Of a stretch of DNA of 64,000 nucleotides, positions 9,628 to 59,596 are shown piece by piece. Source of the stretch: Sulfitobacter faviae (GTDB lineage Bacteria > Pseudomonadota > Alphaproteobacteria > Rhodobacterales > Rhodobacteraceae); assembly GCF_029870955.1 (NCBI RefSeq), contig NZ_PGFQ01000002.1, forward strand, positions 150,827 to 214,826. Direction: 5' to 3'. Both the position numbers and the translations under genes were made by a program. The notes under the pieces were generated by a model. That model saw nothing but the letters and a program-made list of their open reading frames with translations, was not told the origin of the DNA and searched no databases. Positions within the stretch are counted from its first letter, which is position 1. Every line of letters starts with the position of its first letter.

Positions 9628-10809
9628 CTACCCCTCCGCCGCGCGGGCGCGGCTGCGGCGGGCGTGCAGGGTCTCGGCCTCAGCCAGATCGTCGCTTTCG
9701 ACCTTAACCGTCTCATGCCCACCGGGGCGCTGCGCACGCTTGCGCCGAAGCGGGCCGCTATCATCGCTTTCCCGCGGCAGGATCAACCGGTCGACCAAAG
9801 TGCGGCGGAGGCCGAGGGTCGAAGTCAGATCGAAGACCCGCGCGGCGACCGCCTCAGCCTCTTGCGGCTGGACCAGCAACTCAAGCCGCGTGACGGGGCG
9901 GGATTTCTTGCCCTGCCCGCTGAGCATCATGAGATCGACCACGCCCTCCATCTCGCGCAACCGATCCACCGCCGCGCCCAGTTCTTCGCCCGTCATGTCG
10001 TCGATATCGCAGGCGAATTGCACGAGACTGTCCTGCGCGATGCCCGTCGTGGCGGAGTCAAAGACGCTGACCCGCAGGATATTCGGCAGCCCTTTCATCA
10101 CCCGCATCCCCGCGCCCGATCCGGTACAGCGCAGCCGCCCCGGTGGACGGCTGGCGATGGGGCTGCCGCAGGTGAGATGGGCAAGGATCGCGGCCCCGGT
10201 GGGTGTCACCCGCTCGCCCGGCACGCCGTCGTCATGCCAATCATAGCCTTGCAAGATGAGCGCCGTGGCGGGCGCGGGCACCGGCAGTTTGCCATGCGCC
10301 GTTTCGACCAAGCCGCCGCCGAGGGGCAGTGCTGCTAGCGAGAATGTCGCCCCCTTCAGCGCGGCGCAAATGCTGCCCGCGGCGGTCACATCCATCAGCG
10401 CGTCCCAATCCGCGATCTCATGAAAATGCACCCGGTCGATGGGGATGTCATGCACCTGCGCTTCGGCCTCGGCGATCCGGTGAAGGATGGCGCAGGCGGC
10501 CTCCGCCGTGCCCTCGGACAGCGCTGCGTTTTCCAGCAAGTTGCGCATGGCGCGATAGGTCGTCTCGGCCCCATGCCGCCTGCCCGCGTCGGGTGTTGTC
10601 AGCACCAGCTCAAACCGCCGCGACGTGATGCCCGAGGCGACATGTTCGCTCAGTTCCGCATGGCCCACCTCGGCGGGGAGGACGGCGGCGACATCGGCCA
10701 AGGCGCGCTCGGCCAGATTGGGGAAGGCATGCAACATTGCGGCGATGAACATATCCCCCGCCGCCCCGCCAACGGGGTCGAGGTGTAGGTGAAGCCCCTG
10801 CCCCCGCAT
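9628..10809 (-). CDS. larC: LarC, nickel insertion enzyme for the nickel-pincer nucleotide cofactor
   Basis: LarC (DUF111) is a CTP-dependent cyclometallase that places nickel in the pincer nucleotide used by LarA-type racemases. The 393-residue protein opens with GLHLHLDPVGGAAGDMFIAA, the family signature. VHFHEIADWDALMDVTAAG and LPLGGGLVETAHG follow; a histidine- and aspartate-rich central part ends in ACDIDDMTGEELG. It is one uninterrupted gene; in Lactobacillus plantarum larC is split and needs a programmed frameshift. The start at 10809 shares one base with the larA stop (TGATG), so the two are translationally coupled. The LarC fold and its partner gene make the call firm. Confidence 0.94.
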   Translation of the reverse strand: MRGQGLHLHLDPVGGAAGDMFIAAMLHAFPNLAERALADVAAVLPAEVGHAELSEHVASGITSRRFELVLTTPDAGRRHGAETTYRAMRNLLENAALSEGTAEAACAILHRIAEAEAQVHDIPIDRVHFHEIADWDALMDVTAAGSICAALKGATFSLAALPLGGGLVETAHGKLPVPAPATALILQGYDWHDDGVPGERVTPTGAAILAHLTCGSPIASRPPGRLRCTGSGAGMRVMKGLPNILRVSVFDSATTGIAQDSLVQFACDIDDMTGEELGAAVDRLREMEGVVDLMMLSGQGKKSRPVTRLELLVQPQEAEAVAARVFDLTSTLGLRRTLVDRLILPRESDDSGPLRRKRAQRPGGHETVKVESDDLAEAETLHARRSRARAAEG

Positions 10810-12122
10810 CAATGCCCCTCCGGCCAAGGGTTGCGCAGCAGGCCGTCGTCGAACTGCATCTCTTGCAGATCGCCAATCACCTCAAGCCCCGGACGGTCGC
10901 GCAGTTCCGGCAGCATCGCCTCGGAGGCATAGAGATACTCAAGCTTCAGCGTGTTGGGGATGCGCAGCAGCCGGACCTTGGTGATATCCTCGGCCCCGCA
11001 GGTCTTGACCGCCGTCTGGATCGCGGTGCGGTCGCAGGGCATGACCATCGGGATTTTTGACTGCTTCAACACTTGTGAGGTGATGGCATTGGCATAGACC
11101 GCCTCGCGGTCGAAGTCCTGCTCCAACCGCTGCGTGATCACATCCGCCCGCGCCGCGCCATTGCCGTTGCCATTGCTGCGCGGCGACAGGCCAAGCGCCA
11201 CCAGCCGCGAGATATGCAGATGGACCTGCATCTTCTCGCTTGAAAACCGATGGGTGATATTGGGGTCCATCCCGGTGCCAGAGAACTCCTTGCCGATCTC
11301 ATCCACCACCAGCACGTCCAGATCGCCCGAGGCCGAAGGCGCGTCCAGCGGCCCCAACGGCAGACGGGGCATGTTGCGCATCGCCTCTTGCAGATAGGGC
11401 GCTTCGGCCTCCAGCATCCCGTCGCTGTCGAGCGCCACAACCTGCGCCAGCCCATCATAGGCATTCTCAATCGTGCCGATGCCGAAAAGCACCTTGCAAC
11501 GTTCCAGCTTCATCCGCGCCATTTTGGCCACGAAGATGCCGACGTTGTCGATGCCGCGCGAATGGCAGGTCTCGGCGCCCGATTGCTTGCCCAGCCCGAT
11601 CGAGAGCATTTTGGCCAGCCCGCTTTCGTTCGGCGCGCGGAAAGAGGTATGCGGCTTGATCCGGTTGAACAGGATAATCCCATCGGCGGCATTGGCGTGG
11701 CGGTCCATCCGCACCGACATGCCGTTGTCGAGCACGCCGATCTCATCGGTTTCCATCGAAGAGCGGATTTCGCAACCGAGGCTCTCTTCGGTCACGCCCA
11801 GTTTCGCCAGCAGCGCGGTCTGCCCCTCTGCGGTGGCGCCGCCGTGGCTGCCCATGGCGGGCACGACAAAGGGATGCGCCCCGCGCGCGCGGACCTCGGC
11901 CACGATGGCGGCCAGCAGTTCCGGCAGGTTCGCCAGCCCGCGGCTGCCTGCGGTGATGGCGATGGACATGCCCGGTTTGATCTTGCCTGCGCAATCGGCC
12001 TGCATCGCCTCCGCCACGGCGGCGCGCGGGTCGTCGATCTGGGTCGCGGCAAAGGTCTGACGGCAGAGCGCCATGCGCGGCAGCGGCGTATCCTCGACCA
12101 GTTTCACATAGTTCGGTTTCAT
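10809..12122 (-). CDS. LarA-family nickel-pincer racemase/epimerase homologue
   Basis: A 437-residue member of the lactate racemase superfamily (DUF2088). The cofactor residues known from L. plantarum LarA (His108, His174, Lys184, His200) have clear counterparts: His93 in GSHGG, His158 in RIKPHTSF, Lys171 in SGLAKML and His187 in AETCHSRG. The Lys-to-His spacing of 16 is identical. Characterised homologues invert the alpha-hydroxy carbon of lactate, malate, hydroxyglutarate or D-gluconate. Setting among sugar-acid dehydratases argues for an aldonate or aldarate epimerase, but the substrate is not determined. The start at 12122 is preferred to 12143 because GAGGGGAC precedes it. Confidence 0.9.
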   Translation of the reverse strand: MKPNYVKLVEDTPLPRMALCRQTFAATQIDDPRAAVAEAMQADCAGKIKPGMSIAITAGSRGLANLPELLAAIVAEVRARGAHPFVVPAMGSHGGATAEGQTALLAKLGVTEESLGCEIRSSMETDEIGVLDNGMSVRMDRHANAADGIILFNRIKPHTSFRAPNESGLAKMLSIGLGKQSGAETCHSRGIDNVGIFVAKMARMKLERCKVLFGIGTIENAYDGLAQVVALDSDGMLEAEAPYLQEAMRNMPRLPLGPLDAPSASGDLDVLVVDEIGKEFSGTGMDPNITHRFSSEKMQVHLHISRLVALGLSPRSNGNGNGAARADVITQRLEQDFDREAVYANAITSQVLKQSKIPMVMPCDRTAIQTAVKTCGAEDITKVRLLRIPNTLKLEYLYASEAMLPELRDRPGLEVIGDLQEMQFDDGLLRNPWPEGH

Positions 12123-12145
12123 CTGCGCTGTCCCCTCTGACATCG

Positions 12146-13692
12146 TTACCCCGTGACCCCAATCGGCCAAGGTGCGAATTCCTCTTCGCCCACGCCGAGC
12201 GCTTCGGACTTGCTTTGCTCCCCCGAGGCGATGGCGAGGATGCGCTCGAAGATCCTTTGCCCCAACTCCTCTAGGCTCTGCTCGCCGTCGATCACGGTGC
12301 CGCAGTTGATGTCCATATCGTCCTGCATCTTGGTGAACATCGGCGTGTTGGAGGCGAGTTTGATCGTCGGTGAGGGGTAAGAGCCAAAGCACGACCCGCG
12401 CCCGGTGGTAAAGCAGATCAGGTTCGCGCCCCCGCGATCTGCCCGGTGGCCGAGACGGGATCGAAGCCGGGCGTATCCATGAAGACCAGCCCCTTTTGCG
12501 TCACGGGTTCGGCATAGCGGTAGACCTCCATCAGCCCCGTGCTGCCGCTTTTCTTGGCCCCGCCGAGCGATTTTTCCAGCACATTCGCCAGCCCGCCTGC
12601 CTGATTGCCGGGGCTGACAACGCCGTTGATCTGCGTGTCGCGGCCCTTGGTATAGTCCAGCCACCAATCCATGCGTTCGACCAGCTTGCGCCCCACCTCT
12701 TCACTGCGGGCGCGCCGGGTCAGGAGGTGTTCGACACCGAAAATCTCGGGCGTTTCCGAAAGGATCGCCGTGCCGCCGTTGCGCACGAGGATATCCGCCG
12801 CCGCCCCCAGTCCGGGGTTGGCCGAGAGCCCCGAAAGCCCGTCCGACCCGCCGCATTGCATCCCGATGGTGATATGTTCCGCCGAACAGGGCGCGCGCCG
12901 GACGGCATTGGCCTGATCCAGCATTTCGCGCACCGCTTCTTTGCCTTCGGCAATCGCGCGGGCCGTGCCGCCGACATGTTGCATGGTGACGCAGCGCAGC
13001 ATCTTGCCCTCGGCCAACCCCTCCTCTTCAAAGAATTGGGCGAGGTTGTTGCGCTCGCAACCCAGCGAGAGGACCACGGCCCCGGCCAGATTGGGGTGGC
13101 GGATATAGCCCGAGAGCGTGCGGCGCAGCAGGTCCATCGGCTCGCCCGTAAGCTCCATCCCGCAGCCGGATTCGTGGATGAAGGGGATCACCCCGTCGAC
13201 ATTCTCCCATGCCTCCATCCGCTCTTCGTCGAAGTAATTGGCGATCTTGCGCGCCACGGTGGCCGAGCAATTCACTGTGACGAAAAGCCCGATGTAGTTG
13301 CGCGTGCCCACCCGGCCATTGGCGCGGCGGATGCCCATGAACTGGGCGCGCTCTTGCGGTGGCAGCAGCTTGGTCGGGGTATAATCGCGGGCAAAGGCAT
13401 AGTCTTTGTCGACCGCGTCGAACTTGATGTTATGGCTGTGCAGCCAATCGCCTGCGGCGATCTCTACTGCCGCATAGCCGATCACCGTGTCGAATTTCAG
13501 GATCGGCGCGCCGCGTTGGATCGGGCGGATCGCGATCTTGTGACCTTGGGGCGTATCGTGGTTGGCACGCAGCCCGTCTTGCGGCAATACCGCGCCACGG
13601 GGAACCGCCGCGGTTGCCACGACCACGTTATCCGTCGGTGACAGCAGCATCACCTTTGCGCGTCTGTCCTCTTGCATGGTCTGGCTGTCCAT
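12146..13692 (-). CDS. UxaA/GarD-family altronate or galactarate dehydratase
   Basis: A sugar-acid dehydratase of the UxaA family that eliminates water from an aldonate or aldarate to give a 2-keto-3-deoxy acid. An N-terminal SAF domain (about residues 10-85; RGHKIA-like run QGHKIAIRPI, then GDWLHSHN) precedes the catalytic domain. Catalytic-domain motifs are RRANGRVGTRNY, VLSLGCERNN, QCGGSDGLSG and SPGNQAGGL. The frame breaks in the C5 run at 12429-12433; an added base gives 515 residues ending with GEEEFAPWPIG. Both domains are fused, as in E. coli UxaA. The gene heads the minus-strand unit with larA and larC and is divergent from the GntR gene at 13786. Confidence 0.9.
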
Positions 13693-13749
13693 CGGATGCT
13701 CCCCCTCCCTCGGGTGTCGAAAAAACCGCTTCGGTAAGATGTCATTAAC

Positions 13750-13759
13750 TGATATATTA
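13750..13759. promoter_or_regulatory. Putative GntR operator TGATATATTA (copy 1)
   Basis: This AT-rich 10-mer lies in the 93-bp divergent promoter between the UxaA-family gene and the GntR gene. The identical 10-mer occurs at 17997-18006 in the other divergent promoter of the cluster. GntR/FCD regulators often bind TGATATATCA-like palindromes, so these are candidate operators. Confidence 0.5.
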
Positions 13760-13785
13760 GATTTAACAGCTATGGAAGAGCCCGC

Positions 13786-14562
13786 ATGACCGCATCGAAG
13801 AAACCCGCCGCGCAGAGCGCACAGACCCTTGCCAAAAGCATCCTTGGCGGTGGGGCCGACTTGGGTATGTTTGAGGGCGGGCCGACGGGACGCGGGGTTT
13901 ACGCCACCCTGCGCGATCAGATCGTGAGGCTGGACCTGCCGCCCGGCACGCCGCTGTTGCGCGCCGAACTGGCCGAGACCCATGGCGTCAGCCTGACGCC
14001 GCTGCGCGATGCGCTGCAACAGTTGGCCAAAGAAGGGCTGGTCAAGATCTACCCGCAATCGCGCACGCTGGTCACACCGATCGACATGTCGGCGATCCGC
14101 GAGGCGCAGTTCATGCGCATCGCGCTTGAGACCGAGGTCGTGCGCCGTTTGGCCGATGAGATCGCGCCCGAAGCCCTCACCCGTCTGCGCAGCATCGTCG
14201 CCTTGCAAAGCAGCATCTCGGACCAACCCGGCGATGTGCCGACCTTTCAGGAATTGGACGAGGTGTTTCACCAGACCCTCTTCGTGGCGGCGGGCCATGT
14301 GCAAAGCCAGCGCATCATGCGCAGTCATGCGGGCCACTTGGAACGCCTGCGCCGCCTGCATCTGGACGACATTGATGAGGCCGGGCGCATTCTGAACAAC
14401 AAGGACGTGATCGCCGGCCACAGCCGCATCCTCGATGGGATCGAAGCGGGCGATGCGCCCGCGGCGATGGAGGCACTGCGCCAGCACCTGCAACGCACCG
14501 TCGACCGGATGACCGAGAAACGGGCGGCTTTCCCGGAGTATTTCACCCCGGAAAAGCCCTGA
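13786..14562 (+). CDS. GntR-family transcriptional regulator (FCD domain)
   Basis: A 258-residue regulator with a winged-helix domain (YATLRDQIVRLDLPPGTPL, then LAETHGVSLTPLRDALQQLA, about residues 40-85) and an all-helical FCD effector domain. FCD metal-site residues are visible as ELDEVFHQTL and GHSRILDGIEAGD. It is transcribed away from the UxaA-larA-larC unit and converges with the RraA-like gene. It is the likely repressor of both divergent promoters that carry TGATATATTA. The effector is probably the acid or its keto-deoxy product (inference). Confidence 0.9.
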   Translation: MTASKKPAAQSAQTLAKSILGGGADLGMFEGGPTGRGVYATLRDQIVRLDLPPGTPLLRAELAETHGVSLTPLRDALQQLAKEGLVKIYPQSRTLVTPIDMSAIREAQFMRIALETEVVRRLADEIAPEALTRLRSIVALQSSISDQPGDVPTFQELDEVFHQTLFVAAGHVQSQRIMRSHAGHLERLRRLHLDDIDEAGRILNNKDVIAGHSRILDGIEAGDAPAAMEALRQHLQRTVDRMTEKRAAFPEYFTPEKP

Positions 14563-14563
14563 T

Positions 14564-15274
14564 TCAGCGGTTGTTGGCCTTGCGCCACGCGGCGAACTTA
14601 TCAAGATTCTCTTGCTTGGTGCCGGGGTAGAGCCCGATGATCCCGGCGCCATCCTTGACCTGCTCCACCACGAAATCCTCATAGGCGGTCATCTCGACAG
14701 CCTCATCTGCCACCTCTTCGGCGATATCCGCGGGGATGATGATCACGCAGTCGTCGTCGCCCACCACGATATCACCGGGAAAGACGGGGGCATCGCCGCA
14801 GCCCACGGGGCAGTTGATCTCAATCGCCTCATGCAGCGTCAGGTTCGTAGGGCTGGAGGGGCGCGCGTGATAGGCGGGGATCTCAAGCGCGCCGATGGTC
14901 GCCGCATCGCGCAAGCCCCCGTCGGTCACCACACCCGCCGCGCCGCGCATCATCAGCCGTGTGATCAGGATGTCACCGGCGCTTGCCGCGCGGGCATCCT
15001 TGCGGCTGTCCATTACCAGCACATGGCCCTCGGGGCAGGTCTCGATCGCGACGCGCTGCGGATGCTCGGGATTGCGGAATTCGACCAATTGGTTGCGGTC
15101 TTCGCGGGCAGGCATATAGCGCAGGGTAAAGGCGGGGCCGACCATGTTGCGCCCCTTGGCGGCAACCGGACCGACCCCCTGCACCACCTGATTGCGCAGC
15201 CCGCGCTTGTACAGCGCCGTCGCCAATGTCGCGACCGAGACCGCTTGAAGTTTCTCGCGTAGTTCGGGGCTCAT
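14564..15274 (-). CDS. RraA-like protein (HMG aldolase/oxaloacetate decarboxylase superfamily)
   Basis: A 236-residue protein of the RraA fold. Recognisable pieces are VSVATLATALYKRGL near the start, MVGPAFTLRY, GDILITRLMMRGAAGVVTDGG (the metal/substrate loop) and SAGDIL. Also visible are PVFPGDIVVGDDDCVIIIP and ADEAVEMTAYEDFV. Characterised relatives are 4-hydroxy-4-methyl-2-oxoglutarate aldolases or oxaloacetate decarboxylases. In sugar-acid operons such proteins probably split or decarboxylate a keto acid intermediate. The start at 15274 overlaps the stop of the DapA-like gene by 4 bp, so an upstream in-frame ATG is rejected. Confidence 0.88.
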   Translation of the reverse strand: MSPELREKLQAVSVATLATALYKRGLRNQVVQGVGPVAAKGRNMVGPAFTLRYMPAREDRNQLVEFRNPEHPQRVAIETCPEGHVLVMDSRKDARAASAGDILITRLMMRGAAGVVTDGGLRDAATIGALEIPAYHARPSSPTNLTLHEAIEINCPVGCGDAPVFPGDIVVGDDDCVIIIPADIAEEVADEAVEMTAYEDFVVEQVKDGAGIIGLYPGTKQENLDKFAAWRKANNR

Positions 15275-16182
15275 GCCGCCTCTCCCTTCAGTTGATTGTC
15301 TTTCAAGAATTGATCCAGCACCGCCTGCTGCTGTTCCGTCAGCGGCCATGCGGAAGGCGGGCGCGTGGGGCCGCAATCCTGTCCGATGGCCATAAGGGCG
15401 GCTTTGACGCCGGTGACATTGGTGCCGTTATGCTCTTCCGCGCGGATGTCCTCAAAGGCGCGCATCCCGGCGATGAGGCGGTTCGCTTCGCCGTAGTTGC
15501 CTGCGTCGAGTGCCGCGTGGATGGCGACCGAGCGCTCGGGCCAGACGTTGATAAGGCCCGAGGTGAAGCCCCGCGCCCCCACGGCATAGAGCGGCGGCGC
15601 CCAGACCTCGGCCAGACCGCCGACCCAGACGATATCTTTTGGCGCAGCTTCGATCGCGCGGGCAAGGTTCAAGGGGTTCGGCGTGGCCCATTTGACGCCC
15701 TTCACCCCGTCGACCTCGCACAGTCGCGCGATGCCCTCGGGCCCCATCGCGTCATTGCGCAGGTACAGCATCACCGGCAGCCCGCCCGAGGCATCGCGCA
15801 CCGCATGCACATAGTCGACCGTACCACGGGGAGAGACGAAGGGATCGGGCGGTTGGTGGATCATCAGCGCATCCGCCCCCGCCTCGGCGCTTGCCTTGGC
15901 CAGCGCACAGGCATCGCGAATGCCGCGCCCGACCCCTGCAAGCAGCGGCGCGCGCCCATCGACCATCTGCGCCACCTCGCGCACCATGGTGCAGGCCTCG
16001 TCATTGGTCAGCGCGTAATATTCGCCGGTATTGCCGTTCACCACCGGGATATGCACCCCGGCGGCAAGCGCGCGGTTAATGATCGGCCCCAGCTTGCGCG
16101 GCGCGATCTCTCCGCCCGGGTCATAGGGCGTCACGAGGATGCCCGAGATGCCGGTAAGCGCTTTCGAAAGATCATGTGTCAT
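15271..16182 (-). CDS. Dihydrodipicolinate synthase/N-acetylneuraminate lyase family aldolase or dehydratase
   Basis: A 303-residue class I (beta/alpha)8 aldolase. The substrate-carboxylate loop is VVNGNTGEYYALT (48-60), the catalytic Tyr lies in PVMLYLRND and the Schiff-base Lys in GVKGVKWATPNP near 163-174. The neighbours are sugar-acid dehydratases, and the C-terminal region is not typical of DapA. A role as 2-keto-3-deoxy-sugar-acid aldolase or as 5-dehydro-4-deoxyglucarate dehydratase (KdgD-like) is therefore likelier than lysine synthesis. It overlaps the RraA-like gene by 4 bp and follows the IlvD/Edd gene by 12 bp, so the three form one unit. Confidence 0.9.
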   Translation of the reverse strand: MTHDLSKALTGISGILVTPYDPGGEIAPRKLGPIINRALAAGVHIPVVNGNTGEYYALTNDEACTMVREVAQMVDGRAPLLAGVGRGIRDACALAKASAEAGADALMIHQPPDPFVSPRGTVDYVHAVRDASGGLPVMLYLRNDAMGPEGIARLCEVDGVKGVKWATPNPLNLARAIEAAPKDIVWVGGLAEVWAPPLYAVGARGFTSGLINVWPERSVAIHAALDAGNYGEANRLIAGMRAFEDIRAEEHNGTNVTGVKAALMAIGQDCGPTRPPSAWPLTEQQQAVLDQFLKDNQLKGEAA

Positions 16183-16194
16183 TGCCAGCCCCTC

Positions 16195-17936
16195 TCAGAA
16201 GATATCCGGCTCGCCCGCCGCTTGGCCGAAGGCCGCGGTGAGGTAGTCGAAGTCGCAGCCCTGATCGGCCTGCCCCACATGGCGCTGGAACATATAGCCC
16301 CACCCCCGCTCGAACCGCGGCTCGGGCGCTTTCCACGCAGCGCGGCGGGCGGCGAGTTCGTCCTCATCCACCAGCATGTCGAGGGTCCGCGCCTCAAGAT
16401 CCATGCGCACGATGTCCCCCGTCTTCAGCAGCGCCAGCGGCCCGCCCACGAAAGACTCCGGCGCGACATGCAGGATGCAAGCGCCGTAAGAGGTGCCCGA
16501 CATCCGCGCATCCGAGATCCGCAGCATGTCACGGTGCCCCTGTTTCAGCAGCGCCTTGGGCATCGGCAGCATCCCCCATTCCGGCATCCCCGGCCCGCCC
16601 TGCGGACCGGCGTTGCGCAGCACCAGCACATGGTCGGGCGTCACATCGAGGTTTTCGTCGTCGATGGCGGCTTTCATCTCGGGGTAGCTGTCAAAGACCA
16701 ACGCCGGGCCTTCGTGGTGGTGGAACTTCGGATCGCAGGCCGCCGGTTTGATCACCGCGCCATTGGGGCAAAGGTTGCCCTTGAGCACGGCAAGCGAGCC
16801 TTCCTTATAGACCGGGTTCGACAGGGGCCGGATCACGTCGTCATTATAGACAGGCGCATTCGCGATCCCTTCTTCCAGCGGTTTGCCGGTGCAGGTGATG
16901 GCCGACCGGTCAAGCTTGTCGCCCAACTGGTCCATCAGCGCCCGCAGCCCGCCCGCGAAGTAGAAATCCTCCATCAGATATTCGCTGCTGCCCAAGGGCC
17001 GGATATTGGCAATCAGCGGCGTGATGCGGCCCAGAGCGTCGAGATCGCTCAACTCCAGCGCCACCCCGGCGCGGCGCGCCATGGCCAAGAGATGCACCAC
17101 CGCATTGGTCGAACAGCCCGTCGCCATGGCCACCGTCGCCGCGTTTTGCACGGCGGCGGGGGTGATGATCTTGTCGGGCGTCAGGTCCTCCCAAACCATA
17201 TCGACAATGCGCCGCCCGCAAGAGGCGCTCATCCGTTTGTGCCCCGCATCCGCAGCGGGGATCGAGGTCGCCCCCGGCAGGGTCAGCCCCATCGCCTCGG
17301 CAATCGCGGTCATGGTGGAGGCGGTGCCCATCGTCATGCAATGCCCGTAGGACCGCGCAATGCCGCCTTCGACGCCAACCCATTCCTCGGCCGAGATCGT
17401 GCCCGCGCGGCGTTCGTCCCAGAACTTCCAGGCGTCCGAGCCAGAGCCAAGCGCCCGCCCCGCGTAATTGCCGCGCAGCATCGGCCCCGCGGGCAAAAAG
17501 ATGAACGGCACGCCTGCGCTGATCGCGCCCATGGTCAGCCCCGGCGTGGACTTGTCACAGCCCCCATGAGCACCACACCGTCAAGCGGGTGCGAGCGGAT
17601 CGTCTCTTCGGTCTCCATCGCGATCATATTGCGGTAGAGCATCGAAGTCGGCTTGGTGAAGCTCTCGTCGATCGAGATCGTCGGGATCTCAAGCCCCAGC
17701 CCGCCGGCCTGCGCGATTCCCTTCTTCACGTCCTCCGCGCGGTCGCGGAAATGAAGGTGGCAGGGGTTCATCTCGGACCAAGTGTTCAGGATGCCGATCA
17801 CCGGGCGGCCTTCCCAATCCTCGGGGCCCAGACCCATCTGCATCATGCGCGACCGATGGCCAAAGCTGCGCAGATCGTCGGGGGCGAACCAGCGCGCGCT
17901 GCGCAGCTGATCGGCGGTTTTCTTGGTCTCGGTCAT
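16195..17936 (-). CDS. IlvD/Edd-family dehydratase (probable sugar-acid dehydratase)
   Basis: An iron-sulfur dehydratase, 580 residues after one-base correction in the C5 run at 17561-17565. The corrected frame gives MGGCDKSTPGLTMG, the cluster-binding Cys motif. Further marks are GHCMTMGTASTM with a second cluster Cys, GCSTNAVVHLLAMA and SDARMSGTSYGACILHVAPE. Length and the LRSARWFAPDDLRSFGHRSR opening match the branch holding L-arabinonate, D-xylonate and related aldonate dehydratases, not the branched-chain amino acid enzyme. It heads a minus-strand unit with the DapA-like and RraA-like genes. The substrate stereochemistry is unknown. Confidence 0.9.
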
Positions 17937-17996
17937 GGATTCCTCGCCAGCTAAAACATCATCACAAAAAGGTTGGAAAACACATCTTGCTCGAAT

Positions 17997-18006
17997 TGAT
18001 ATATTA
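17997..18006. promoter_or_regulatory. Putative GntR operator TGATATATTA (copy 2)
   Basis: Identical to the 10-mer at 13750-13759. It lies between the divergent starts of the IlvD/Edd gene (17936) and the HpcH-like gene (18054), so one regulator bound here could control both halves of the cluster. Confidence 0.5.
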
Positions 18007-18053
18007 CCGTATCACCCCAATTGTCGATACCATTTGAGGGAGGAGCCGCGAAA

Positions 18054-18853
18054 ATGTCGGGAAAACCACTGAAACAAACGCTCCGCCCCAGCAGCCGCCT
18101 GTCGGGCTTTTGGCTCTCGCTCTGCTCTCCTACGGTGACCGAGATCGCGGCGGGCAGCGGGATCGACTGGCTGTTGTTGGATATGGAGCATGCGCCCAAC
18201 GATCTCAGCCAAATCACCGACCATCTGCGCGCGGCAGGCAGTGCCAATCCCGATGCGCAGATGATTGTGCGCCTGCCGTCCTCGGACCAGACGATGACCA
18301 AACGGCTGCTGGATATCGGCGTGCGCAATCTGATGTTCCCGATGATCCAGACTGCCGAGGCCGCCCGCCAAGCCGTATCATGGACCCGCTACCCGCCCGA
18401 AGGGCTGCGCGGCATCTCGGCCACGATCCGCGCCAATGATTACGCGCGGCAAACCGATTACCTCAGCACCTATGCAGAGGCGCAATGCGTGATCGTGCAG
18501 GTCGAAACCCCGAAGCGGTGGCCGAAATTCCCGCCATCGCCGCCGTGCCGGGGGTGGATGCGATCTTTATCGGGCCGGGAGATCTATCCTCCGCGATGGG
18601 CCATACCGGCAACCCGATGCACCCCGATGTCCAAGAGAAGATCCGTGAGGCGGTCGCGGCCATCCATGCCGCCGGGCTGCCTGCGGGCATCCTCGGCTAT
18701 GGTGCCGATCTTGCGCAACGGTACTTTGATGAGGGTATCGAATTCGTCGCCATCGCGGGCGACGCTTGGCTGCTCACGCGGCAGATGGATGCGTTGGTGC
18801 AGACCATGGCGCGGCCCTCCCCCACTTTGACACAGCAAACCCATAAGGATTGA
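18054..18853 (+). CDS. HpcH/HpaI-family class II aldolase
   Basis: A metal-dependent aldolase that cleaves 2-keto-3-deoxy acids to pyruvate and an aldehyde. LLLDMEHAPND holds the early acidic metal-pocket residues, VQVETPEAV (after correction) the metal Glu, and AIFIGPGDLSSAMG the metal Asp and substrate loop. The frame breaks in the CCCC run at 18508-18511; one added base gives 266 residues. Start at ATG 18054 is supported by GGGAGGAG 10-15 bp upstream. It is followed after 2 bp by the aldehyde dehydrogenase, its natural partner for the aldehyde product. Confidence 0.9.
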
Positions 18854-18855
18854 TC

Positions 18856-20396
18856 ATGACCGCGGACAGCAAGAGATTTCACCCCCACGGCAAACATCTG
18901 ATCGCCGGCGAATGGGTCGGCGGCGGAGAGACCTTCGCCAATTCCCCCGCCACCGGCGAAAGCGACCAATTCCAAAGCGGCACCCCGGCCCATGTGGACC
19001 GTGCCTGCCAAGCGGCGGAGGAGGCCTTTTGGTCCTACGCCTATGCCAGCCGCGAGACCCGCGCCGCCTTCCTCGACACCATCGCGGATGAGATGGAGGC
19101 CCGAGCCGAGACCATTACCGAGATCGGCACCCGCGAATCCGGCCTGCCCGAAGCCCGCCTTCAGGGCGAGCGGGGGCGGACAACCGGGCAGCTTCGCCTC
19201 TTTGCCGATCACATCCGCAAAGGCGCGCATCTGGACCGGCGCGTTGACGGCGCCCTGCCCGAACGCCAACCAATGCCGCGCCCCGACATCCGCATGATCC
19301 AGCGCCCCATCGGGCCGGTCGCGGTCTTCGGCGCGTCGAACTTCCCGCTGGCCTTCTCTACCGCGGGCGGCGACACCGCCGCGGCGCTGGCGGCGGGCTG
19401 CCCAGTCGTGGTCAAAGGCCACTCCGCCCACCCCGGCACGGGGGAGATCGTTGCCGAAGCGATCCACGCGGCGATCCAGAAATGCGGCATCCACCCCGGC
19501 GTCTTCTCTCTGATCCACGCCAACAGCCGCGAGGTGGGGCAGACGCTGGTGCAGCATCCGCTCATCAAGGCCGTGGGCTTTACCGGATCGCTCGGCGGGG
19601 GGCGCGCGCTCTTTGATCTTTGCGCCCAACGCCCCGAGCCGATCCCCTTCTTTGGCGAGTTGGGCTCGGTGAACCCGATGTTCGTTTTGGCCGATGCCGC
19701 CCGCAATCGGGGCGCTGAGATCGGCGCGGGCTGGGCCGGCTCGCTGACCATGGGCGCGGGGCAGTTCTGCACCAACCCCGGCATCGCGGTCGTGGCCAAA
19801 GGGGCCGAAGGCGATGCATTCGTCGCCGCCGCGAAAGAGGCGCTTGAGCAGGTCGGCCCGCAGGTCATGCTGACCGACGGCATCGCCAAAGCCTACCGCG
19901 ACGGCAAGGAACGTTTCACCGGGCGCAACGCCGTCCGCGCACTGGTCAGCAACGACAGCGAAGGCCGCGCCGCCCAGCCGAACTTGTTTGAAACCGACGC
20001 CGATACCTACCTGCAAGACCACGCGCTTGGGGAGGAGGTCTTTGGCCCCTTGGGTCTGGTGCTGCGGGTGTCCTCGGGCGATGAGATGCAAGAGCTCGCC
20101 AAAGGGTTCGAGGGGCAATTGACCGCGACGCTCCAGATGGACGAAGGCGACACCGACGCCGCCAAGGCGCTGATGCCCATTCTTGAGCGCAAGGCGGGCC
20201 GGGTGTTGGTGAACGGTTTCCCCACCGGGGTCGAGGTTTGTGACGCCATGGTGCATGGCGGCCCCTACCCGGCCTCCACCAACTTCGGCGCGACCTCTGT
20301 CGGCACCATGGCGATCCGCCGCTTCCTGCGACCCGTGTCCTACCAAAACCTGCCCGAGGCGCTATTGCCCGAAGACCTGCGCGGGCTTCGGCATGA
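18856..20396 (+). CDS. Aldehyde dehydrogenase, alpha-ketoglutaric semialdehyde dehydrogenase type
   Basis: An NAD(P)-dependent aldehyde dehydrogenase of the KGSADH/AldH branch. Marks are FGASNFPLAFSTAGGDTAAA with a cofactor-binding VVKGHSAHPGTGE, FTGSLGGGRAL, catalytic Glu in FFGELGSVNP and catalytic Cys in GAGQFCTNPG. The frame breaks near the GGG run at 20383-20385, close to the C-terminus. With one added base the protein ends PEDLRGASA and its TGA overlaps the next ATG by 4 bp, giving 513 residues, the family length. Sugar-acid pathways through 2-ketoglutarate semialdehyde use this enzyme type. Confidence 0.88.
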
Positions 20397-21355
20397 GCGG
20401 CGGGTTGATCGGCCCCGTCGCCGTGCTCGACGCGATGCCGCAGGACATGCAAGACAAGGTGCGCGGCTATGCCGAAGGGCTCGACCTGCGCTTTGCGGCC
20501 TCCTTCTCGGAAGAAGCCTTTGCCGAAGCGGTAAAGGGGGCAGCCTATATCGTCCCACGCGGGCGGGGGCTTCCGGCTGAGGTGCTGCGGGGGGCCGATA
20601 GCGTGCGCCTCGTGCATCAATGGGGCACCGGGTATGACAAAATCCCCTTGGATGTCGCGCGCGAGATGGGTGTGCCGGTCGCGCGCAGCCCCGGGGTCAA
20701 CGCGCCCACCATCGCCGATCTGACCATCGGCATGATGATCGCCGCGCTACGCCGCATCCCGCTGCATTACAACAACACCCGCGCGGGCAAATGGATCGTG
20801 CCCGAGATCGTCCCCGGGGCGCGGGATCTCAGCAGTCAGAAGGTCGGGCTGATCGGCTTTGGCGCCATCGGGCAGCTTGTCGCGAAACGGCTGACGGGCT
20901 TTGACTGCGAGGTGCTCTACTACCGCCGCTCGGGGCCCGCCGAAGGCACCAGCGCCCGCTATGCAGACCGCGATGAAATCCTTGAGACCTGCGATATTGT
21001 CAGCCTGCACATGCCGCTGACCGATGCGTCACACCACACCATCGGGGCGGATGAACTGGCGCGAATGAAATCGGATGCGCTTTTGGTGAACACCGGGCGC
21101 GGCGGGCTGATCGATGAGGCGGCCCTGATCGACACGCTGACCCACAAGCGCATCGCCGGGGCCGCATTGGATGTCTTTACCCAAGAACCGGTGGAGCCGG
21201 ACAACCCGCTGCTGCGTCTCGATAATGTCCTGCCGCTGCCGCATATCGGTGGCCATAGTGAGGACAACCTCAAACGCATGGTCGGCCATTGGGCGGGCAA
21301 CATCCGCGCCTTCCACGAAGGGCGCGGCATCGACGAGGCCTGCCTCGTGACCTGA
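20393..21355 (+). CDS. D-isomer-specific 2-hydroxyacid dehydrogenase
   Basis: A 320-residue NAD(P)-dependent 2-hydroxyacid dehydrogenase (GhrB/SerA fold). The Rossmann motif is KVGLIGFGAIGQLVAKRL. The catalytic Arg region is LLVNTGRGGLIDEAAL, with Glu in FTQEPVEPDNPLL and the catalytic His in LPLPHIGGHSED. It starts at ATG 20393, overlapping the corrected stop of the aldehyde dehydrogenase. Likely substrates are glyoxylate, hydroxypyruvate or another 2-keto acid from aldol cleavage. It ends just before a strong bidirectional hairpin. Confidence 0.9.
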   Translation: MSGGLIGPVAVLDAMPQDMQDKVRGYAEGLDLRFAASFSEEAFAEAVKGAAYIVPRGRGLPAEVLRGADSVRLVHQWGTGYDKIPLDVAREMGVPVARSPGVNAPTIADLTIGMMIAALRRIPLHYNNTRAGKWIVPEIVPGARDLSSQKVGLIGFGAIGQLVAKRLTGFDCEVLYYRRSGPAEGTSARYADRDEILETCDIVSLHMPLTDASHHTIGADELARMKSDALLVNTGRGGLIDEAALIDTLTHKRIAGAALDVFTQEPVEPDNPLLRLDNVLPLPHIGGHSEDNLKRMVGHWAGNIRAFHEGRGIDEACLVT

Positions 21356-21362
21356 AGGCAAC

Positions 21363-21388
21363 CCCCGGCCTGACCCCTCAGGCCGGGG
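21363..21388. terminator. Bidirectional hairpin between convergent genes
   Basis: CCCCGGCCTGA (21363-21373) and TCAGGCCGGGG (21378-21388) form a perfect 11-bp stem with a 4-base loop. It sits between the convergent stops at 21355 and 21395. There is no long T run, so it may work as a hairpin stabiliser or rho-assisted terminator. Confidence 0.75.
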
Positions 21389-21394
21389 CGCGGC

Positions 21395-21709
21395 TTAACC
21401 CTCAAGCGGTACGGGCAACAGGATCTTATTGGTCTGGCTCACCAAATACCCCGCCTCGGCGCTTTTCTTGAGATAGGCCTGCCACTCAGGATCCGCCGCC
21501 ATCTGCGCCCGACGGGCCGCACGGTCGGCAGCGTCCTCATAGGCCCAGATATGCACGAAGGAATTGACGTCCCCCGTCTCGACCTGCGCATAGATCACCG
21601 GCTCGCCCAAGATGCGGCGCTGCGCCGGGAAGCCGAATTCGGCATAGAGCGCGAGGTGTTTCTTGATCGTGCCGGGGCGGCAGCAATAGGTGCGGTGGTC
21701 GTAGATCAT
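21395..21709 (-). CDS. NIPSNAP family protein
   Basis: A 104-residue ferredoxin-like (dimeric alpha-beta barrel) protein. YDHRTYCCRPGTIKKHLALY at the N-terminus, VNSFVHIWAYEDAADRAARR in the middle and WQAYLKKSAE at the C-terminus match the NIPSNAP family. Bacterial members sit in catabolic operons with unclear roles. It is the last gene of the minus-strand unit GntR-larE-larB-GntR-NIPSNAP, 25 bp after the GntR stop. Confidence 0.85.
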   Translation of the reverse strand: MIYDHRTYCCRPGTIKKHLALYAEFGFPAQRRILGEPVIYAQVETGDVNSFVHIWAYEDAADRAARRAQMAADPEWQAYLKKSAEAGYLVSQTNKILLPVPLEG

Positions 21710-21734
21710 GGGGTGGTCTTTCTGCTTGCTTGGG

Positions 21735-22451
21735 TCATGCGATACCGGCGTGGTCGGTGATCCGGGCCCGCGCCTGCAAAAGGTGATAGGCCATCGACAC
21801 GCCTGCGACTTCGCTGTCGCCCGCGCGGATCGCTTCGAGGATTTGCCGATGTTCGCTGATCACCACGTCGATCCGGGCTTGGGAGCCTTGACGGGTCAGT
21901 TTTTGCGCCACGTCGATCCCCTGTTCGATCGAACCGCGGGCGCAATCGAGCATCTGCACGAAGACCTCATTGCCCGAGGCCGCCGCGATGGCGCGGTGGA
22001 ATTGGTAATCGGCGTCAAAGGAAGGATCGCGCGCCTGCATCGATGCCTCCAGCGTCTGTAAGGCTGCCTCGATCCGGGCGATATCCTTGGGGCTGGCGCG
22101 CTGTGCGGCCATGCGGGCGGTGGCCTTTTCGATCGTGATCCGCGCCTCCATGGCGCGCATCAGCCCGGCGACGGAACCCGCCGTGGCATATTCGATCAGC
22201 TTTTCCGAAGGCCGCCGCCGCACGAAGGTGCCCACGCCGCGCCGCGCTTCGACCAGACCGTCCTCTTGCAGCTTGCGCAGCGCCTCACGCACCACGGGGC
22301 GCGACACGCCAAAGGCGGTGGCGATCTGATTCTCCGACGGCAGCTTTTCCCCCTGCACCAGCTTGTTCGACACGATCTGCTCAAGAACCTGCCCGTAGAG
22401 CTGGTCAGCCAAAGTCTGGCGCTTCTTGATCTTCAGTTTCGGTGCTGTCAC
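21735..22451 (-). CDS. GntR-family transcriptional regulator (FCD domain), second copy
   Basis: A 238-residue FadR-type regulator. The winged helix runs from LADQLYGQVLEQIVSNKL to PSENQIATAFGVSRPVVREA (about residues 14-60), with the wing motif RRGVGTFV. The FCD domain contains DADYQFHRAIAAASGNEVF and SEHRQILEAIRAGD with metal-ligand His residues. It starts at GTG 22451, 3 bp after the larB stop, so it belongs to the larE-larB unit. It may sense the substrate of the LarA homologue (inference). Confidence 0.9.
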   Translation of the reverse strand: MTAPKLKIKKRQTLADQLYGQVLEQIVSNKLVQGEKLPSENQIATAFGVSRPVVREALRKLQEDGLVEARRGVGTFVRRRPSEKLIEYATAGSVAGLMRAMEARITIEKATARMAAQRASPKDIARIEAALQTLEASMQARDPSFDADYQFHRAIAAASGNEVFVQMLDCARGSIEQGIDVAQKLTRQGSQARIDVVISEHRQILEAIRAGDSEVAGVSMAYHLLQARARITDHAGIA

Positions 22452-22454
22452 CGG

Positions 22455-23161
22455 CTACCCTCCCGCCGCGGCGCGGCGCATCATATTGGCCAGCCGCAGC
22501 GCCGATGTTGCAGCCCCATAGCCGTTGTCGATGTTCACCACGGTCACCCCCGGCGCGCAGCTGGCAAGTATCGAATCGAGCGCGACCCTCCCGCCGCGGG
22601 CGACACCATAGCCCACAGAGGTCGGCACACCAATGACCACCCCCGGCACCAGCCCGGCCACGACCGAGGGCAGCGCCGCGTCCATCCCGGCAAAGACGAT
22701 CACCACATCCATCTCGCGCAGCAACTCTTCCCGCGCGAGCAGACGCCACAGCCCGGCGACGCCCACGTCCGAAACCTCGGTCGCCGCCATCCCGCCATAG
22801 GCCAGCGTGCGCCGCGCCTCGGCCATGGGAGCGTAATCAGAGGTGCCCGCACTGACGAGGGCGATGCGCGGGGTGCTGGCCAAGGGCCCGATCTCTCCCA
22901 AAATGGCGGTGCGCGAGGCCATGCAGTAATCGACCCGTTGCGCCGCGTCGGCGGGCAGCGCGGCGAACTGCTCTGCCGTCAGCCGGGTCAGCAACAGCCG
23001 CCGTTCCTCTGCTGCCGCGTCTCCGATGATGGCGGCGATCTGCGCCACGGATTTATGCTCACAAAGCACGGCCTCTTCGATGCCGATACGCCCCCGCGGC
23101 CCCGGTCAAAGGTCACGTCTGGATGCCCGTCGGGGCCGGTCTTAGTGATGGACAAATGCAC
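22455..23161 (-). CDS. larB: LarB, nicotinate adenine dinucleotide carboxylase/hydrolase for the nickel-pincer cofactor
   Basis: LarB carboxylates the pyridinium ring of NaAD and splits the phosphoanhydride, the first step of the cofactor pathway. The AIR-carboxylase-like core is visible as LVSAGTSDYAPMAEARRTL, VIVFAGMDAALPSVVAGL and GVPTSVGYG, followed by VVNIDNGYGAA. The frame breaks in the C5 run at 23091-23095. With one base added the N-terminus reads GRIGIEEAVLCEHKS, joining the core into 235 residues. GTG 23161, preceded by AAGAGGAA, is the best start and overlaps larE by 20 bp; an internal GTG at 23116 is the alternative. Confidence 0.92.
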
Positions 23162-23926
23162 TTCCTCTTAAATAGGCCCGCAGATCGACCGCGCGCCCGT
23201 CATCCGTGGCCTGCCGAACCTGCGTCAATATCGCTGCACGTTTCTGGGCGGAGAGGCCCTCATAGACAAGCGGATCAAGCTCGACCACCCAACCCCCGCG
23301 CAGGCGTCGGCAGCGCAGGGTGATATTGCCCATGACCTCACGCAGCAGGGTCTCTACCCGGTCGATCACCGCCAGATCCGCCGGCTCCACCCGCAGACCG
23401 GTCTCGATCCGGCTGGCCAAACAGGGGGCGGCTGGCAGTTCCGCCAGATCCCCCAGCCCGAGCGCGCGGGCCAAGGCGCGCACATCCGACTTGGACATCT
23501 GCGCCTCGACGAAAGGGTGCAACACGCCGTGCTCCGCCGCGGCTTGTAGGCCGGGACGGTAGTCCGACAGGTCATCGATATTGGTGCCCGCCGCCACCAG
23601 CGGCCCCATCCGCGCCAAGGTGCCATAGAGGTTCGATTTGCAGAAATAACAGCGATTGACCGGGTTCGCGCGATAGGCGGGATCGGCGAACTCCCCCGCG
23701 TCGACCAGCTTCAGCGGCAGGTCCCAAGTGGCGGCGAAATCCTTCACCCGCGCGGTTGCCGCCGCCGGAACGGCGGGTGAGACCGCATGGCAAAGCGTCA
23801 CGCCCGCCGCGCCGCGCACCTTGGCCGCGGCGGCCGAGAGCGTCAGGCTGTCGATCCCCCGCTGAGCGCGATGGTCAGTGAAGGGGGGCGCGCAAGGGCG
23901 GCGTGGAGGGCGGCAGGAACGGTCAC
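23142..23926 (-). CDS. larE: LarE, ATP-dependent sulfur transferase for the nickel-pincer cofactor
   Basis: LarE activates the two carboxylates of the LarB product with ATP and turns them into thiocarboxylates. The PP-loop motif SGGIDS (residues 22-27) appears once the C5 run at 23856-23860 is lengthened by one base, giving 261 residues. NRCYFCKSNLY supplies Cys93 and Cys96 and APCLASR supplies Cys169. Three such cysteines are the pattern of LarE forms thought to hold a 4Fe-4S cluster as sulfur carrier. The L. plantarum protein instead gives up one Cys sulfur. GTG 23926 overlaps the upstream GntR stop by 4 bp. Confidence 0.92.
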
Positions 23927-24677
23927 TCCGCCAATCCGTCCTCAGTCTTGAGCTGTGCCAAAAGCCGCCCGCTTGACATCTGGAGGTGGTCGCGCATCCG
24001 CTGGCGGGCGCGTTCCGCGTCACCCTCGGCGATAGAGGCGGCGATGTCGTAATGCTCTTGAATCGCGTCACGGCTTTCTCCACCGCGTTTCAGCGCTTGC
24101 AGCCGCCCGGCCAGCATCGTCTCGCGCAGGCTGGCGACAAGGTAGTTGAACAGGCTGAGGTAATAGCTGTTGCCCGTCGCCTCGCAAACCGCGCGGTGAA
24201 AATCGAGGTCGGCAGTGACCCCTGCCGCCACTGCCGGGCCGCCGATCTTGTTGCTTTGGTCATAGGCGGCGGCGGCACGCTCAATCTCTGCGCGGGCCTC
24301 GGGGGTGGCGCGGGCGGCGGCGATGGCAGCGGCTTCGATCTCAAGCCCCATGCGCAGCTCTAGGATCTGTTCAAGCTTGCGCTGGCTTTCCATATCACGT
24401 TCGGGAATCGCAAAGCCCTGACGGGGCCGGTCGCTGGCGACAAAGGCCCCCGGCCCTGACGGCTCGACAACATGCCTTCGGCCTTAAGGCGCGACACCGC
24501 CTCGCGGATCACCGTGCGGCTCACGTCGAAATCGCTGGCCAATGTGGTTTCGGAGGGCAGCACATCGCCCACGTTCCACACGCCGTTCACCACGTTGTGG
24601 CGCAGCACCTCCGTCACCTGATCGCTCAGCGTGGCACCATCGACGAGGGGCGCGGTCGCCTGAAGATTTGCAGCCAT
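23923..24677 (-). CDS. GntR-family transcriptional regulator (FCD domain), third copy
   Basis: A FadR-type regulator, 251 residues after adding one base in the C5 run at 24447-24451. The DNA-binding part contains VTEVLRHNVVNGVWNVGDVL, then PSETTLASDFDVSRTVIREA (about residues 20-60). The wing SSRQGRGAFVAS is rebuilt by the correction. The FCD domain has DLDFHRAVCEATGNSYYLSL and EHYDIAASIAEGD. It heads the unit with larE and larB and is divergent from the TAXI transporter, so it may control uptake as well as cofactor synthesis. A palindrome at 24714-24726 is its likely site. Confidence 0.88.
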
Positions 24678-24929: not shown

Positions 24930-25889
24930 ATGTCACCGTTCTTCAAATCGATCCGCCGCACCACAGCGGCCACCATCCTTTTCGCCGTCGCAGGCGCCGC
25001 CGCCCATGCGCAGAGCTTTGTCATGGCGACCGGCCAGCAGGGCGGCTCGTGGTATCCCGTGGGCGGCGCGATCAAGGCGATCGTGGAGCGTGAGAACCCA
25101 GATATGGACATCACCGTCACGCCGGGTGCGGGCGTGTCGAATGTGGTCGGCGTGGACGCGGGCCGCTTTGGCATCGCCTTCGCCAACTCGATCTCGACCG
25201 TGGACAGCCTGTCGGGCAAAGAGCCGTTCCGCAAGGCCACGACCAATGTCTGCAACCTTGGCATTCTTTATCCGCAGTATTTCCAGATCGTCGCGCTTGA
25301 GGATTCGGGCATCAAGACCATCGCCGACATGAAGGGCAAACGCCTGACCACGCAGCAGCTTGGCAACACGGGCGAATTCCTGACACGCGAGCTTTTGTCG
25401 ACCGCCGACATGACCTTTGATGACCTCGACAGCGTCGCCAACACCTCCTATTCCGACTCCGCCTCGCAGATGAAAGACGGTCAGGCCGATTTCTTCACGC
25501 TCGGGTCGTCGCTGCCGACAGGTTCGGTCATGGATCTGGCCTCCTCCCGCAAGATCCGCCTGATCGACGTGGATGAAGAGACCTTCCAGTACTTCAAAGA
25601 CAAGAACGCCGCCTTCCAGCGCCGCGAAGTCAAGGCAGGCGCTTACCCCGGTTTCGATGAGACCGTGCATGCGATCAGCTACGACACCCATATGGTCGCG
25701 CCCTGCGACTATGACGGTGAGATCGTCAAATCCGTGCTCGCCGCGATTGCCGACAACAACGACAGCTTCGCCGCGATCAGCAAATCCATGGCGAACCTGA
25801 CGGTCGAGGAAATGGCCACCGACATCGGCGTGCCCTTCCACCCCGCCGCGAAAGAGTTCTACGCAGAGCGTGGCGTCTCGGGGATGTAA
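24930..25889 (+). CDS. TAXI-family TRAP transporter solute-binding protein
   Basis: A periplasmic binding protein (319 residues) of the TAXI type. A Sec signal peptide ends near AGAAAHAQS (residues 20-28). The mature start reads FVMATGQQGGSWYPVGGAIK, the TAXI signature; the family's namesake TAXI element is represented by this GGSWYPVGG loop. GVDAGRFGIAFANS and KGKRLTTQQLGNTGEFL follow. The ribosome site GGGAGGAG is strong. It works with the fused permease downstream. The ligand is unknown; its place beside the sugar-acid cluster suggests a hydroxy acid. Confidence 0.92.
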   Translation: MSPFFKSIRRTTAATILFAVAGAAAHAQSFVMATGQQGGSWYPVGGAIKAIVERENPDMDITVTPGAGVSNVVGVDAGRFGIAFANSISTVDSLSGKEPFRKATTNVCNLGILYPQYFQIVALEDSGIKTIADMKGKRLTTQQLGNTGEFLTRELLSTADMTFDDLDSVANTSYSDSASQMKDGQADFFTLGSSLPTGSVMDLASSRKIRLIDVDEETFQYFKDKNAAFQRREVKAGAYPGFDETVHAISYDTHMVAPCDYDGEIVKSVLAAIADNNDSFAAISKSMANLTVEEMATDIGVPFHPAAKEFYAERGVSGM

Positions 25890-33624: not shown

Positions 33625-33874
33625 TCGGGATTTGACGACAGCGGCGGCCCTCCCTCCCCGGGGTCGCCGCCCCATGCGCGGAATGCCCAAGTTTCGGACA
33701 GCACCGCGATTTGCTGCCCATTTTTCAGGCAAGCCCGCCGTGCAGGCGGCTCTGAACCGCCTCGGCGATGACTCTCCCCCGTCTCTATGGTGATTAAAAA
33801 ATCATCAGACTTTACAGGGCGGAGCGTTCCTCATCCTCATCGACAGCAGCATAAACAGCCCCCAAGCGACCCCG
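33625..33874. other. Intergenic region upstream of the urease operon
   Basis: This 250-bp stretch contains a G/C-rich imperfect stem near 33645-33672 (GCGGCGG...CGCCGC) that may end the MDR transcript, and an AT-rich part near 33789-33813 that probably belongs to the urease promoter. No TGGCAC-N5-TTGC sigma-54 promoter was found. The ureD frame is open from 33794 but has no ATG. Confidence 0.4.
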
Positions 33875-34672: not shown

Positions 34673-34673
34673 C

Positions 34674-34976
34674 GTGCAACTGACCCCGCGAGAAAAAGAC
34701 AAACTGCTGATCTCCATGGCTGCCGAGGTCGCCCGCAAGCGCCTTGCGCGCGGGGTCAAGCTGAACCACCCGGAGGCCATCGCCCTCATCACCGACACCG
34801 TGGTCGAAGGCGCGCGGGATGGCCGCAGCGTGGCCGATATGATGCAGGCCGGTGCCCATGTCATCACCCGCGACGACTGTATGGAGGGGGTGGCCGAGAT
34901 GATCCCCGAGGTGCAGGTCGAAGCCACTTTTCCCGACGGGACCAAATTGGTCACCGTGCACAACCCCATCAGATAG
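34674..34976 (+). CDS. ureA: Urease gamma subunit
   Basis: A 100-residue urease gamma subunit, standard length. It opens [20 protein letters not shown] and contains [15 protein letters not shown] and [13 protein letters not shown], ending [14 protein letters not shown]. Together with UreB and UreC it forms the urea-hydrolysing complex in the cytoplasm. Translation begins at GTG 34674, immediately after ureD. Confidence 0.97.
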
Positions 34977-34984
34977 GATATCCC

Positions 34985-37207: not shown

Positions 37208-37217
37208 AGAGACCGAG

Positions 37218-59593: not shown

Positions 59594-59596
59594 GGG

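Follow-up and report, generated by a model that had tools for sequence, protein, structure and literature searches.

A LarA homologue, putatively a nickel-dependent sugar-acid C2-epimerase, and its cofactor genes in a sugar-acid gene cluster of Sulfitobacter faviae

The stretch of DNA analysed here, referred to as the window, comprises 64 kb of the Sulfitobacter faviae genome (3.83 Mb, five contigs) and is part of contig C2. It contains genes for a nickel-pincer nucleotide (NPN) system among genes for sugar-acid degradation. The larA homologue (10809 to 12143, minus strand) scores 483.9 bits on NF052515, NPN isomerase group 22 (cut-off 400), and is a proposed sugar-acid C2-epimerase. It overlaps by 1 base with larC (9628 to 10809, minus), whose product is assigned to nickel insertion (LarC1, 159.4 bits against 90; LarC2, 94.8 against 50). 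Two bases ahead of the larA start is the stop of UxaA (12146 to 13692, minus, frameshifted), an altronate/galactarate-type dehydratase with the Pfam domains GD_AH and SAF. A second dehydratase, of the L-arabinonate type (IlvD/EDD; 16195 to 17936, minus, frameshifted), is annotated as araD in S. faviae. The remaining cofactor genes are larB (22455 to 23149, minus; NF033503, 222.7 bits against 175) and larE (23142 to 23926, minus; TIGR00268, 213.3 bits against 150), each with a frameshift near its start. The annotated S. faviae plasmid served as the reference for the gene borders. A preliminary description had placed the four lar genes beside sugar-acid genes, and this holds: LarA is above its NCBIfam cut-off, and the biosynthesis set, LarB, LarC, and LarE, is above the equivalog cut-offs.

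The predicted structure of the window LarA has the two-domain fold of LarA. When the PDB was searched by sequence, neither a single LarA sequence nor a 31-row profile had a useful LarA match (2yjg_A only at E 0.56), and structure comparison was therefore used instead. R61, H93, H158, K171, and H187 are conserved in 100 of 100 group-22 rows and are aligned with the same residues of 11 other LarAs. The NPN-binding and catalytic residues of LarA are given as R75, H108, H174, K184, and H200 (numbering of PMC11770544). An hhalign comparison of two LarA alignments had a probability of 1.9; the residue pairing was kept since the 111-row alignment yields the same five residues. Carbohydrate genes have been linked by context to a LarA subfamily that has a single catalytic histidine (PMC12611868); the window LarA has both histidines. 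Lactate racemase proper has F and F in the loop that follows the second histidine, and the D-gluconate 2-epimerase GntE has E and V at the same positions (PMC11770544). The group-22 loop has an insertion and its columns are approximate; T is found there in 91 of 100 rows and S or A in 89. Neither the F,F signature of lactate racemase nor the E,V signature of GntE was found in these rows.

The gene neighborhoods of LarA were compared in 80 named group-22 loci (the best-ranked of 592, mutually related), 19 evenly drawn group-22 loci, and 20 control loci of other LarAs. The controls all belong to the same taxonomic class as the window. NF052515 is matched at E 1e-100 or better by all 80 named LarAs and the window LarA (81 of 81), and the 19 evenly drawn LarAs are all over its cut-off. 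Family profiles were built from the 80 named loci, and which sugar-acid families to count was decided after those loci had been viewed. The profile labels were assigned by hand, with at least one member checked for most of the labelled families relied upon. Loci shorter than 15 kb are present in each sample (14/80, 3/19, and 5/20, respectively), and L155 is a duplicate of L005.

Of the 80 named loci, 29 have UxaA or IlvD near LarA, as do 4 of the 19 evenly drawn loci and none of the 20 controls. The difference between the last two samples is weak (p = 0.047), and for UxaA alone it is 2/19 against 0/20 (p = 0.23). By an approximate distance rule, in which the larA start is an estimate and wide gaps are allowed, one of the two dehydratases is the immediate neighbor of LarA in 18 of 99 loci; UxaA is directly upstream of larA in eight and IlvD directly beside it in 10. 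Thus, the conserved linkage that had been put forward as a test was found, but it is patchy across loci. The presence of UxaA or IlvD changes at least 13 times, a rough figure, on a quick tree without bootstrap (100 group-22 rows and 11 others) in which long branches meet in places. The link therefore appears to have been gained or lost many times. One loss is visible in L006, where a short frame just ahead of larA matches two separate UxaA pieces and is a remnant of the gene.

LarA and LarBCE could be plasmid passengers that have no functional tie to the dehydratases. The close relatives L005 and L007 are without dehydratases, and in Pseudosulfitobacter pseudonitzschiae H46 the cluster is in two parts about 11 kb apart. 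This explanation is nevertheless very improbable. Neither dehydratase occurs in the 20 control loci of other LarAs, UxaA adjoins LarA in Bacillota too, and many of the same gene types are regrouped around a distant LarA and UxaA in genome G746, which belongs to another family of the phylum.

G746 provides the most telling single comparison: relatives of 16 of 20 query proteins lie there within about 21 kb. The identities are 71% for IlvD, 63% for RraA, 43% for HpcH, 35% for UxaA, and 31% for the 2-hydroxyacid dehydrogenase. For the lar genes they are 38% (LarA), 59% (LarB), 51% (LarE), and 41% (LarC). The thiamine-pyrophosphate (TPP) enzyme is 66% identical, the FAD-linked oxidase 61%, the SDR oxidoreductase 61%, the FCD-type regulator 43%, and the two TAXI proteins 60 and 75%. 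The aldehyde dehydrogenase has partial matches at both ends (45 and 54%), and the second FadR query matches the same G746 gene as the FCD regulator query. A DapA relative was found only about 10 kb away (27%), and no relatives of the NIPSNAP protein and the first GntR were found in the G746 cluster. The G746 LarA is far from the window LarA on the quick tree. Since a different LarA is accompanied by much the same core, it is suggested that the core needs the epimerization.

The whole IlvD orthologue of S. dubius scores 1085 bits on NF009559 (L-arabinonate dehydratase, cut-off 882), and the larger piece of the split window IlvD scores 823. For the S. dubius UxaA orthologue, the closest solved structure is galactarate dehydratase (6u7l), and its score on TIGR03248, galactarate dehydratase, is 366.6 bits, under the cut-off of 730.85. 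As judged from these scores, UxaA is a relative of galactarate dehydratase outside that equivalog. The HpcH/HpaI aldolase (18054 to 18853, plus, frameshifted) was identified through its S. dubius orthologue, which is closest to HpaI and GarL and below both cut-offs.

These similarities bear on the possibility that LarA acts on a 2-hydroxy dicarboxylate of the aldarate, tartrate, or malate type. Such a substrate would fit TRAP and TctABC transporters as well as the galactarate dehydratase relative and the likeness of HpcH to GarL. TctA is directly upstream of LarA in five of 99 loci, and malate, hydroxyglutarate, and D-arabinarate are substrates of LarAs from other groups (PMC11770544). However, UxaA is far under the galactarate dehydratase cut-off, IlvD is of the L-arabinonate type, and the kinase-type partners found elsewhere serve monocarboxylic sugar acids. 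A dicarboxylate is thus quite unlikely.

The cluster also encodes an RraA-like aldolase (14564 to 15274, minus; PF03737, 105.4 bits). The other enzymes that had been listed for it, in addition to the UxaA-type, IlvD, and HpcH-type proteins, were found as well. These are a DapA-type dehydratase/aldolase (15271 to 16182, minus; PF00701, 139.2 bits), a KGSADH-like aldehyde dehydrogenase (NADP+) (18856 to 20397, plus; S. faviae annotation), and a 2-hydroxyacid dehydrogenase (20393 to 21355, plus; family match and S. faviae annotation). The downstream genes would fit the conversion of a five-carbon acid to pyruvate and a two-carbon piece, or to 2-oxoglutarate.

The LarA homologue probably uses NPN to invert a polyhydroxy acid at C2 and feeds the dehydratases, with cofactor from the clustered LarB, LarE, and LarC. 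Gene content, predicted fold, key residues, and conserved neighborhoods are observed, and from them the reaction class, substrate, order of steps, and transport are inferred. Inversion of an aldonate or aldarate ahead of the dehydratases had been proposed earlier; C2 epimerization of an aldonate-like acid is the best reading of it, although the linkage is patchy. In the superfamily, the NPN takes a hydride, C2 becomes a ketone, and the hydride is returned to the other face (PMC7583248, PMC11770544). In the Sulfitobacter cluster, a sugar acid could be imported by the TAXI TRAP transporter. LarB, LarE, and LarC would build the NPN, with which LarA would convert the wrong C2 epimer to the right one by hidden hydride transfer. 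The IlvD or the UxaA dehydratase would then form a 2-keto-3-deoxy acid. This acid may undergo a second dehydration and an oxidation towards 2-oxoglutarate (DapA-type protein and aldehyde dehydrogenase), or it may be cleaved by the HpcH or RraA aldolase. The two-carbon piece could be handled by GlcD, the TPP enzyme, and the 2-hydroxyacid dehydrogenase. The best single guess for the substrate is a pentonate, L-ribonate being interconverted with L-arabinonate, and its probability is low.

Several observations weigh against this proposal. L005 and L007, with LarAs 85% and 77% identical to that of the window, have neither dehydratase within about 10 kb, and 12 of the 19 evenly drawn loci are without any counted sugar-acid family. 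The aldehyde dehydrogenase is under the cut-offs of all families shown, alpha-ketoglutaric semialdehyde (2,5-dioxovalerate) dehydrogenase included. The DapA-type protein, a candidate for the 2-keto-3-deoxypentonate dehydratase of the Weimberg pathway, is a member of the DapA family that reaches no cut-off among the seven families listed. With both proteins below cut-offs, the pentonate route is not proven.

Alternatively, the substrate of LarA may be a smaller 2-hydroxy acid formed late in the pathway (glycerate, or an acid that is derived from glycolate or resembles lactate). LarA would then serve not the dehydratases but GlcD, the TPP enzyme, and the 2-hydroxyacid dehydrogenase. L007 possesses LarA, LarB, LarC, LarE, TAXI, TPP, and GlcD genes without IlvD or UxaA. 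In Haloarcula sinaiiensis (L179, 6486 to 9296), a group-22 LarA comes directly after a glycerate 2-kinase-like gene (240.4 of 550 bits) and LUD-domain genes adjoin; this gene order hints at a glycerate racemase. Nevertheless, uxaA, larA, and larC are packed no more than 2 bases apart, and a dehydratase as direct neighbor recurs in the loci counted above. A late role on a small acid is therefore considered unlikely.

The acids accepted by L-arabinonate dehydratases have C2 to the right and C3 to the left in the Fischer projection; those accepted by altronate and galactarate dehydratases have the mirror-image arrangement. If LarA does invert C2 ahead of the dehydratases, the remaining two C2/C3 pairs would be brought to one or the other dehydratase, and every isomer would give the same 2-keto-3-deoxy acid. 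Sugar-acid stereochemistry usually means one dehydratase per isomer, and an upstream epimerase would relax that rule.

Group-22 LarAs are also found in other contexts. In 32 of 99 loci, mostly in Bacillota, an SDR gene directly follows larA. The named loci contain gluconokinase-like FGGY kinases (27/80), 6-phosphogluconate dehydrogenase (24/80), and glucuronate isomerase (17/80). One representative of each was scored. The Bacilli SDR exceeds the D-mannonate oxidoreductase cut-off (288.2 against 281 bits), the Bacilli FGGY kinase does not reach that of gluconokinase (495.4 against 648.55 bits), and the 6-phosphogluconate dehydrogenase and glucuronate isomerase are over theirs. The context in Bacilli is similar to the route through GntE that has been proposed for Thermotoga maritima and is discussed in PMC6978723. 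In Salinicola, a DUF1537-type kinase (SBD_N and NBD_C domains), PdxA, and an NAD-binding reductase are near LarA. In the archaeon Natronococcus sp. CG52 (L183, 5616 to 9257), a four-carbon acid sugar kinase, PdxA, and a group-22 LarA are in a tight row. The kinase is closest to D-threonate kinase (212.8 of 450 bits), and the row hints at a tetronate C2-epimerase. In Marinovum, TRAP genes and LarA are followed by genes with the annotations KDPG aldolase and 2-keto-3-deoxygalactonokinase. In Halocatena, LarA is amid sugar ABC transporter, GH88, and Gfo/Idh genes, and Sporomusa termitida has TctCBA, LarA, and two UxaA-family genes. Five plasmid LarAs were checked and all are over the group-22 cut-off.

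It is possible, though rather doubtful, that group 22 is a general branch of nickel-dependent enzymes that epimerize C3 to C6 polyhydroxy acids at C2 and have been recruited repeatedly beside enzymes that accept only one C2 epimer (a dehydratase, a kinase, or a phosphate dehydrogenase). In Sulfitobacter, the epimerase would stand between two dehydratases whose C2/C3 preferences are opposite, and all four C2/C3 stereoisomers of an aldonate would thereby reach the same 2-keto-3-deoxy acid. With the proposed role, group 22, seen here in Bacteria and Archaea, would become a testable class of sugar-acid epimerases.

Published LarA-type enzymes include D-gluconate 2-epimerases and racemases of malate, hydroxyglutarate, and a broad range of 2-hydroxyacids (PMC7583248, PMC11770544). 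GntE (LarAH19 and LarAH20, groups 19 and 20) is likewise a LarA-type NPN sugar-acid epimerase beside sugar-acid genes (PMC7583248, PMC6978723). Because such epimerases have already been published in sugar-acid pathways, the pathway is less new than was first claimed. The window LarA is of another group, lacks the E/V loop signature at the approximate columns (PMC11770544), and has dehydratases as partners, whereas GntE has gluconokinase. The 13 LarA homologues assayed in 2020 carry group numbers other than 22 (PMC7583248, Table 1); the NCBI group numbers are assumed to follow those of that paper. The name of NF052515, which the window LarA passes, carries no reaction, and "group 22" was not found in the main texts of the papers searched for it. 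A limited search found no paper joining nickel-pincer with altronate dehydratase, or DUF2088 with sugar acid; absence from print is not established by it.

The non-phosphorylative (Weimberg-type) pathway for L-arabinose uses L-arabinonate dehydratase, a DapA-type enzyme, and an aldehyde dehydrogenase. The Sulfitobacter cluster has a dehydratase of the L-arabinonate type and, as candidates at the family level, the other two. It differs in that no sugar dehydrogenase or lactonase was seen among its genes and in that it adds an NPN epimerase and the second, UxaA-type dehydratase.

Thirteen Sulfitobacter plasmids of about 190 to 420 kb contain the entire region from 9600 to 31900 (86.8 to 97.7% identity), the best being from S. 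faviae. Pseudosulfitobacter plasmids carry LarA homologues of 80 to 90% identity; 47 records of this genus matched, and among the matches listed many came from diatom cultures. The proposed reaction points to a reason for which a dedicated nickel cofactor pathway is retained on a plasmid by marine bacteria, some of which come from diatom and coral samples. Positions 1 to 16014 of C2 repeat 47999 to 64000 of the window, so that 16 kb is present at both contig ends (99.74% identical). C2 is thus probably a circular plasmid of about 199 kb whose overlapping ends were left untrimmed.

In 9 of 23 genes compared with the S. faviae plasmid, including UxaA, IlvD, HpcH, LarB, LarE, and four more, the frame is split, a point absent from the preliminary description. 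The split genes are annotated whole on that plasmid, and the four within locus L003 (LysR, UxaA, IlvD, and HpcH) are single frames in S. dubius. Gene decay was considered as the cause and rejected. An alignment of the two 16-kb copies (16,028 columns) has 35 gap openings, which amount to 40 gap columns, and a single mismatch; the frame breaks are therefore attributed to assembly errors. The terminal duplicate is a direct gauge of such errors. Split DctM genes are found on C1 and C2 alike (8 of 21 loci, from 31 matches grouped by hand), as are split Aldedh genes. However, rpoB and rpoC are each in a single frame, which speaks against a uniform error rate.

The preliminary description ended the cluster at 23926. 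The genes from 9628 to that point are present, but the real end is near 31.8 kb, with the addition of the TAXI TRAP transporter, TPP enzyme, FAD oxidase, and SDR. The order is larC-larA-uxaA / GntR / RraA-DapA-araD(IlvD) / HpcH-aldehyde dehydrogenase-2-hydroxyacid dehydrogenase / NIPSNAP-FadR-larB-larE-FCD / TAXI TRAP-TPP-FAD oxidase / SDR. The regulators are a GntR-type protein (13786 to 14562, plus; annotated GntR in S. faviae), a FadR/GntR protein with GntR and FCD domains (21735 to 22451, minus), and a frameshifted FCD-domain protein (23923 to 24677, minus). The last two are named from the S. faviae annotation, as are the NIPSNAP family protein (21395 to 21709, minus) and the TAXI-type TRAP solute-binding protein (24930 to 25889, plus). 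The TRAP permease (26024 to 27897, plus) is frameshifted, with DctM split into two matches. It is followed by the TPP enzyme (27925 to 29631, plus; Pfam TPP domains; NF006052 subfamily, 782.9 bits against 539) and a frameshifted GlcD-like FAD-linked oxidase (29644 to 31091, plus; PF02913 and PF01565). The SDR oxidoreductase (31096 to 31842, minus; Pfam adh_short) is the last gene common to this cluster and that of G746.

The gap between the two parts of the cluster in H46 (L184, 14410 to 20584) holds an ABC transporter, with a binding protein closest to nickel-binding NikA (205.1 of 600 bits), and a GTPase near ZigA (568.5 of 600 bits). About 2 kb past the cluster in the window, at about 33800 to 39000, the S. 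faviae plasmid has UreD and a gamma subunit annotated, and the frames there presumably form a urease operon, urease being another nickel enzyme. On the other side of the cluster is an open reading frame (2934 to 3944) that may encode an IS30-type transposase.

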